DNA of 64,000 nucleotides. Origin: Synergistaceae bacterium (GTDB lineage Bacteria > Synergistota > Synergistia > Synergistales > Aminobacteriaceae). Below, one piece after another: positions 1 to 34,577 of this stretch. Each line of letters begins with the position of its first letter. The stretch's first letter is position 1. The notes beneath the pieces were generated by a model. The model did no database searches, was not told where the DNA came from, and worked only from the letters and a program-made list of their open reading frames with translations. Made by a program: the position numbers and the translations under genes. The stretch spans positions 1-64,000 of the forward strand of contig JAFRAH010000013.1 of NCBI GenBank assembly GCA_017405525.1, given 5' to 3'.

Positions 1-35
1 CTTTACCCCCAGTTCGAATCTGGGTGCCGCCTCCA
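1..35 (+). tRNA. tRNA-Cys, 3' part only
   Basis: The window opens inside a tRNA. The T-arm (CCCAG, loop TTCGAAT, CTGGG), the 3' acceptor strand TGCCGCC, a U discriminator and an encoded CCA end at position 35 are visible. The acceptor strand implies a 5' partner GGCGGCA, and with a U73 discriminator this matches bacterial tRNA-Cys as I remember it. The anticodon lies outside the window, so tRNA-Gly (also U73) is not formally excluded. Confidence 0.75.
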
Positions 36-33437: not shown

Positions 33438-34289
33438 TTACTGGTACACTCCCAAGTCAAAAACATAAAAATACTCGAAACCTTTAGCAAACAGCATAGC
33501 AAATAATGCACCGCCACTCATGGAAGTTATAAGTCCTGCACACTCACAGAGAAGAAGTTTAGCAGTAAGGTACTCAAGGCCACTCAGATACTTGTCATTA
33601 TTGCGGTGAAGTGAGTATTCAGTGATTGCTTTGCGCCCCTTGCTGTCAAAACCTATATATTCTTGCTCAGGCACTATCAATATTTCACAGAAAGCCGCCT
33701 CAAATTCAGCGAGAATAGCTTTATCTTCAGTGGCAAGATAGACTGCATCAAATCCTGAGTTGCTTATTGCTTCTCTTACCTTTGAGATGACCTGTGCTGT
33801 ACTAGGCTGGACAGGGTGATTTATGACATTGTATGTGGTGTAGTCGGTTCCGCGTACTGACACACCAAGAACACGCTTGTTCATGAATTTCAGTTTCCCG
33901 CGTTCAACCCTGTCAATGAGAGCGCGTGAAAAATGTATGTACTTCCTGCATATTCCCTGCCAATAAGCAAGTTCACCGCCGTAATTGAGATAAAACCCTA
34001 TCGATGAGTTCGGCTTTGAGAACGGTGAAGGCAAGTGCTGCCTGCTGTCAGAATTATCCATAGCCGAAGCGTCCTCAAGAGCAACACCTCCTGGCTGTTC
34101 AAAATAATATTCCCATGCGTTCACACGTCCTATTTCATCCTTATAGATATACGTATTCAGAGAATTTTTCATGTCAACAACGGGAATCATGTTCTTTCTG
34201 TCAGCATAAGCTATCATTTGCAAGGCACGCACAAAATAAGCAACAAAGCCTACGTTTGGTGAATATACTGGACGTGCAATATAAATCAT
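33438..34289 (-). CDS. Glycosyltransferase-like protein (fucosyltransferase-type), start unresolved, possibly phase variable
   Basis: From the first ATG the product is 283 residues. VLGVSVRGTDYT resembles the GDP-sugar-binding RxxD region of O-/alpha-1,6-fucosyltransferase-like families, and YLATEDKAIL, SLHRNNDKYLSGLEYL and AGLITSMSGGALFAML fit that fold; sugar and acceptor are unknown. The ATG at 34289 has no proper ribosome site. In the same frame the reading frame continues upstream through a basic, coding-like stretch (RRIFLSLTRNRTRR before the ATG) to 34505 but contains no ATG, GTG or TTG. It ends at a TGA within the edge of a pentanucleotide repeat (34484-34507). Removing one repeat unit would join it to an ATG at 34522 and give about 359 residues. 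The gene is AT-richer than its neighbours, a sign of transfer. Confidence 0.55.
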   Translation of the reverse strand: MIYIARPVYSPNVGFVAYFVRALQMIAYADRKNMIPVVDMKNSLNTYIYKDEIGRVNAWEYYFEQPGGVALEDASAMDNSDSRQHLPSPFSKPNSSIGFYLNYGGELAYWQGICRKYIHFSRALIDRVERGKLKFMNKRVLGVSVRGTDYTTYNVINHPVQPSTAQVISKVREAISNSGFDAVYLATEDKAILAEFEAAFCEILIVPEQEYIGFDSKGRKAITEYSLHRNNDKYLSGLEYLTAKLLLCECAGLITSMSGGALFAMLFAKGFEYFYVFDLGVYQ

Positions 34290-34483
34290 CCTTCTGGTTC
34301 TGTTTCGTGTGAGGGATAAAAATATTCTGCGCTCAAATTTCCAAAGAGAAACGCGGGCAAATCTGAGACATGACGACAGCCATTTAATGCGGTCAATTTT
34401 CTTCAGTTTTTTTCTTAGTGAGTGAATGAAATTGCTGGAGAGCTTGCGGGAAAAATCACATAGGGATTTTAGGACAGAATTAC

Positions 34484-34507
34484 GGTCTGGTCTGGTCTGG
34501 TCTGGTC
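34484..34507. repeat. Pentanucleotide tandem repeat (GGTCT, 4.8 copies)
   Basis: GGTCT is repeated four times and followed by GGTC without a single mismatch. On the minus strand the unit is GACCA. It sits between a consensus-like promoter or start region and the in-frame extension of the glycosyltransferase gene. Any change by one unit moves the reading frame. Confidence 0.9.
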
Positions 34508-34508
34508 A

Positions 34509-34537
34509 AGTGTAGCGGCCATGATGGATTGTGTCAA
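34509..34537 (-). promoter_or_regulatory. Promoter-like element upstream of the glycosyltransferase repeat
   Basis: On the minus strand TTGACA (34537-34532) is followed after exactly 17 bases by TACACT (34514-34509). This is close to the sigma-70 consensus and would start transcription inside the pentanucleotide repeat. An ATG at 34522 lies within the spacer, so a use as promoter and as coding start exclude each other for the same transcript. A second -10-like TATAAT lies upstream at 34569-34564. Confidence 0.5.
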
Positions 34538-34577
34538 GTCCTTTCTTTCGGGATTTTCACGAAATTATAGCACACAC

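Follow-up and report, generated by a model that had tools for sequence, protein, structure and literature searches.

Each member of the opa gene family of Neisseria carries a (CTCTT)n array near its start codon and is turned on or off by reading frame. In Haemophilus influenzae, units of 5 and 7 bp are known mediators of switching, among them (TCAGC)n in the hmg LPS locus, and a four-unit pentanucleotide array, (GACGA)n in hsdM, has been reported as a fast switcher (PMC2651432). The Campylobacter phasome, as catalogued using PhasomeIt, consists mostly of poly-G/C tracts inside genes, with no longer units (PMC6321876). A search of the open-access literature for such phase variation or tandem repeats in Synergistetes, Synergistota and Fretibacterium found no description.

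The locus considered here belongs to the genome (2.17 Mb, 43 contigs) of a member of a Synergistaceae genus, and lies on the minus strand of the window, that is, the whole 64-kb stretch of DNA that was analysed. It is best explained as a translational phase-variation (contingency) locus acting via a simple sequence repeat, a reading to which a probability of about 0.85 is given. The proposal of the first-pass annotation, that slippage switches the protein on and off and that the present state is off, is favoured by the recurrent order of start, array, and gene, the unit lengths, and the out-of-frame genes that nevertheless remain open. It gains further support from the roughly one third of genes that lie in frame, the coding-type substitutions after the array, and a four-unit difference between the loci L213 and L216. 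The features of the locus, in the direction of transcription, are as follows.

34572 to 34564, minus strand: extended -10 box TGCTATAAT of the upstream promoter P1 (from the sequence; putative as a promoter in use)
34544 to 34539, minus strand: Shine-Dalgarno-like AAAGGA (from the sequence)
34537 to 34532, minus strand: -35-like hexamer TTGACA of the promoter-like element P2 (from the sequence)
34522 to 34520, minus strand: probable start codon ATG within the P2 spacer, of the 14-nt type among 99 modules
34514 to 34509, minus strand: -10-like hexamer TACACT of P2 (from the sequence)
34507 to 34484, minus strand: tandem array (GACCA)4.8 (from the sequence)
34471 to 34469, minus strand: TAA that closes the ATG 34522 frame at the assembled copy number, OFF (from reading the frames)
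34481 to 33438, minus strand: body of the transferase ORF 3' of the array, 347 codons and a stop codon, with a GT23-like fold from residue 62 (about 34298)
34289 to 34287, minus strand: earliest ATG of the transferase frame, missing in array-bearing relatives and probably not where translation starts

When the sequence was re-read, the GGTCT repeat proved to be exactly as described, with 4.8 copies and zero mismatches at 34484-34507. Since it is the only array of at least four copies of a 4- to 9-mer in the 64-kb window, and since no array with 5- to 8-nt units arose in 40 first-order Markov simulations of the window, it is not regarded as a chance match. Its unit of 5 bp, not divisible by three, stands between the start codon and the gene body. 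The frame assignments made earlier were likewise borne out: the ATG at 34522 lies in another frame than the transferase, reads MAATLDQTRPDQTVILS, and meets the TAA at 34471-34469; the transferase frame runs uninterrupted from 34505 to the stop at 33438, with no ATG, GTG, or TTG before the ATG at 34289; and the third frame stops immediately after the array. The frames after the array thus run for 347, 4, and 0 codons, giving the full protein in one and an early stop in the other two. ATG 34522 lies 15 + 24 + 2 = 41 nt ahead of the point where the 347-codon frame begins, which agrees with the copy-number arithmetic first put forward, as the loss of 5 nt or the gain of 10 nt makes this distance divisible by three, the loss of one unit giving 359 aa. 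The description of the codons as coding-like did not survive when judged by the codon usage of this single gene, in which the sense frame is beaten by one antisense frame. The transferase frame is the top scorer of the three sense frames, all frames score far below typical local genes, and codon usage over the 64 codons 3' of the array is poor.

According to the proposed mechanism, an mRNA from P1 would bear the ribosome site together with ATG 34522 as start codon, and ribosomes would pass through (GACCA)n into the GT23-like fucosyltransferase, with slipped-strand mispairing altering n. At the n assembled, translation would proceed in the wrong frame and end after 17 codons (OFF), while one unit fewer or two more would yield the 359-aa protein (ON), and cells of a population would presumably switch between the two states. 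The promoter noted previously, TTGACA (34537-34532), 17 nt, and TACACT (34514-34509), is present and overlaps the ATG; besides this P2, a further promoter -10, TGCTATAAT, is found upstream of the Shine-Dalgarno-like AAAGGA, from which a transcript start near 34557 would be expected. The remark that the ATG has a poor ribosome site needs correcting: an SD-like AAAGGA does exist (34544-34539), with a spacing to the ATG of 16 nt, which is long and speaks against translational switching here. Two other ways of starting translation were considered and rejected, namely a start at TTG 34509, just 5' of the array, which shares the frame of the gene at only some loci and lacks a normally spaced ribosome site, and the translation of P2 transcripts, from which the start codon would be missing.

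A DNA search with the locus hit further places within the host genome, which matched its promoter-repeat stretch and not the gene, and these places, once read, revealed that the same cassette also stands before other genes. Reading of the stretches around the matches confirmed 13 cassettes in the host genome, one of them with a decayed array. A cassette model built from sequence only, with matches counted at E <= 0.01, gave 221 matches (summed over the table) in 35 of the 43 genomes of the genus, and also hit 5 of 40 genomes from outside the genus but within the family. The cassette is present in at least 13 copies in the host genome and probably in more than 200 in the genus, and this genus-wide set looks like a collection of on/off switches distributed genome-wide.

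The order within the cassette is an extended -10 (TGnTATAAT), a Shine-Dalgarno sequence, and TTGACA-16..19-TATAAT with the start codon in the spacer, followed by the array. Among 99 modules, 47 have TGNTANAAT no more than 60 nt upstream of TTGACA (0/99 in a control stretch), and 94 have an SD-like core immediately 5' of TTGACA (10/99 in the control stretch). The distance from ATG or GTG to the end of the -10 is 20 nt in 46 modules and 14 nt in 25, two spacings that keep the same frame, and the array begins exactly 1 nt past the -10 in 67. The TTGACA of P2 is near-invariant across cassettes; the regular expression by which the modules were collected demanded most of this hexamer, and GACCA arrays found by the array alone provide independent confirmation. 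Arrays of GACCA are present in 17 of the 43 genus genomes. In none of the modules does the array fall in the -35/-10 spacer or ahead of the promoter, as a transcriptional switch would have it; it lies 3' of both the P2 -10 and P1 in 99/99. Past the array, a weakly conserved piece of about TATTGTC...AAATTCC occupies the first 20-25 nt at many loci (34483-34460 in the window). It precedes unrelated genes, as if the copied cassette ended slightly past the array.

A near-consensus sigma-70 promoter P2 over the start codon (34509-34537 in the window) occurs at the same place in nearly all cassettes. Cassettes lacking a visible upstream -10 are mostly situated close behind an upstream gene (e.g. L122, L136, L150) or a terminator-like hairpin; such a hairpin lies directly upstream of the cassettes L011, L123, L130, L202, and L255, where P2 is the sole visible promoter. 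Transcripts from P2 would begin inside the array, devoid of a start codon, which tells against the translational reading, and the possible roles of P2 include raising the mutability of the array, serving downstream genes, or none. It may be suggested, as a speculation that is more probably wrong than right, that a copied 5' cassette created the genus-wide phase-variable set, with P2 holding the array where transcription starts and so providing a built-in hypermutable start site that accepts any unit.

The units of 99 arrays measure 5 (72 arrays), 7 (24), 4 (2), or 8 nt (1), never a multiple of three, and comprise 29 distinct cyclic units, all of them free of stop codons whichever frame is read (P 0.004 to 0.04, two shuffles). 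The cassettes L248 and L250 of G053, a genome from another genus of the family, bear AAGC/AGCA tetranucleotides in 14.0 and 16.5 copies, and L148 (like the array of L147) has the unit GGTCT/TGGTC on its coding strand, which is the usual GACCA in reverse complement. A start could be recognised in 50 fused genes, of which 15 lie in frame and 13 and 22 in the two remaining frames, a split that is not clearly unlike chance and does not separate translation through the array from a model in which the array acts in an untranslated leader. The ORFs of all 35 out-of-frame genes are still open, which argues that the OFF state is temporary.

Copy number was also compared between relatives, as had been proposed. 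The window gene has 4.8 units, and its orthologues in two other species have 5.0 and 8.0. L213 and L216, which come from two species and whose flanks agree to 99% and 95%, have eight GTCAA units and four, respectively, one of the four being altered; copy number is hence unequal between close relatives, at the between-species level. Fifteen arrays coincide exactly with contig ends (L109, L113, L118, L122, L123, L140, L189, L194, L199, L202, L207, L211, L217, L222, and L265), far above chance placing, which could reflect mixed array lengths or ordinary assembly breaks caused by repeats.

No Pfam family scored above cut-off on the window enzyme. An AlphaFold2 model built on 24 sequences (mean pLDDT 85) matches human FUT8 with Z 18.5 and rmsd 3.2 over 243 aligned residues, and NodZ with Z 17.3 and rmsd 2.9 over 223, in both cases from model residue 62; residues 2-59 form a single predicted helix of moderate confidence. 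The GT23 fold is accordingly recognised in the model, and the enzyme shares it with NodZ and FUT8 (Z 17-18.5), whereas identity across the aligned residues is only 14-22%. The RGTD motif is kept among the relatives of the enzyme and the conserved family positions are retained in the window protein, which from its predicted fold would be a fucosyltransferase. Its nearest named relatives come from assemblies of uncultured Synergistales, Synergistaceae, and Fretibacterium, several of them ruminant-derived.

Differences at codon positions, the paralogue L009, the conservation of start codon and SD, and the overlaps of leader frames with downstream genes all argue strongly, though indirectly, that the stretch containing the array is translated. 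Among fused genes, up to 142 codons separate the array from the first possible start codon. In this pre-start stretch, differences at codon positions 1/2/3 amount to 0.42/0.31/0.57 (41 related gene pairs, 939 codon comparisons), figures to be taken as indicative because the pairs overlap and the alignment was protein-guided. L009 (2752 onward, G000:C12:95225) has a point-mutated -35 and a decayed array. From the same ATG, the frame there continues across what remains of the array to encode a 317-aa protein, and the gene looks locked on.

The strongest rival holds that the window gene is transcribed from P2 within the array and translated from ATG 34289, array length tuning transcription or mRNA stability. 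The near-consensus quality and constant placing of P2 would suit this model, as would the position of ATG 34289 at residue 65, only just past the beginning of the fold at residue 62, so that almost the entire catalytic domain would be retained. The model is nonetheless considered improbable: array-bearing relatives lack an ATG at the 34289 position, many loci go on for tens of codons past the array before a usable start codon appears, the substitution pattern of the pre-start stretch is of the coding type, and SD and start codon are conserved upstream of the array. Nor does it predict unit lengths that are never divisible by three. Moreover, array-less homologues from Lachnospiraceae (L034, L037, L066) begin about 40-60 residues ahead of the shared domain, from which the missing start is expected around the array position; pairwise likeness of the N-terminal segments within the enzyme family is clear in some pairs only.

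That the gene is simply broken, with a permanent frameshift and the array as a relic, would account for the assembled frame being off, yet the ORF body stays open for 347 codons, as do 34 other out-of-frame loci, the family positions are conserved in the window protein, and the cassette recurs in 35/43 genomes, making this explanation very unlikely. Least likely of all is an assembly error concealing a real array of other length and a gene that is constantly on, for although the genome is a draft of 43 contigs and short arrays elsewhere coincide with contig ends, the 24-bp array is shorter than one read and out-of-frame arrays occur at 35/50 loci in many independent assemblies.

Cassettes of a second class have their array within a short leader ORF extending to the start of the next gene (L014, L015, L120, L136, L138, L153, L186, L188, L213, L216, L219, L246, L248, L258, and L261), with ATGA-type overlaps. 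One leader frame ends -6 to +16 nt from the start of the next gene at 16 of 23 loci (7.3 expected), and overlaps of 1 or 4 nt were counted at 11 loci (4.4 expected, P 0.0004). At these loci, the leader frame may decide whether ribosomes reach the start of the next gene, by translational coupling. The first-pass alternative of a switch acting on the 5' leader fits such loci, where the array is in a short leader ORF, but not the window locus. The genes next to L120, L136, and L138 encode a GMGNQMF motif reminiscent of GT11 fucosyltransferases. In L014, L015, and L188, a terminator-like hairpin is also present between array and gene and would suit attenuation.

Behind the cassettes lie, among others, genes for GT61, GT2, and GT4 glycosyltransferases, acyltransferase 3, polysaccharide pyruvyl transferase, and UDP-sugar dehydrogenase, together with several methyltransferases, PIG-L and polysaccharide deacetylases, a sulfatase-family protein, an NTP transferase, DUF4422, DUF1919, and DUF2142 proteins, and a List_Bact repeat protein. 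These genes mostly serve surface glycan synthesis, and with the cassette copied before many of them, the cell surface would probably be varied combinatorially.

If translational switching holds true, a single standard cassette lets these uncultured gut bacteria vary many of their surface-glycan genes, with a greater uniformity than is seen at the separate loci of other known systems. The occurrence of 29 units at one fixed place renders testable the origin and upkeep of short repeats in contingency loci, and whether or not transcription start sites promote repeats. The Neisseria opa system comprises one gene family and one unit, whereas the Synergistaceae cassette precedes unrelated genes and accommodates at least 29 units. 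The simple sequence repeat loci of H. influenzae likewise have 5-bp arrays in coding regions, a frame set by copy number, few units (1-4), and surface glycan or restriction functions; they differ in being separate loci of another phylum with no shared start cassette, and in including 7-bp arrays that affect promoters, upstream of hmw1A and hmw2A (PMC2651432). Campylobacter resembles the present genus in the many phase-variable surface-glycan genes per genome, but its phasome has no common 5' cassette (PMC6321876).
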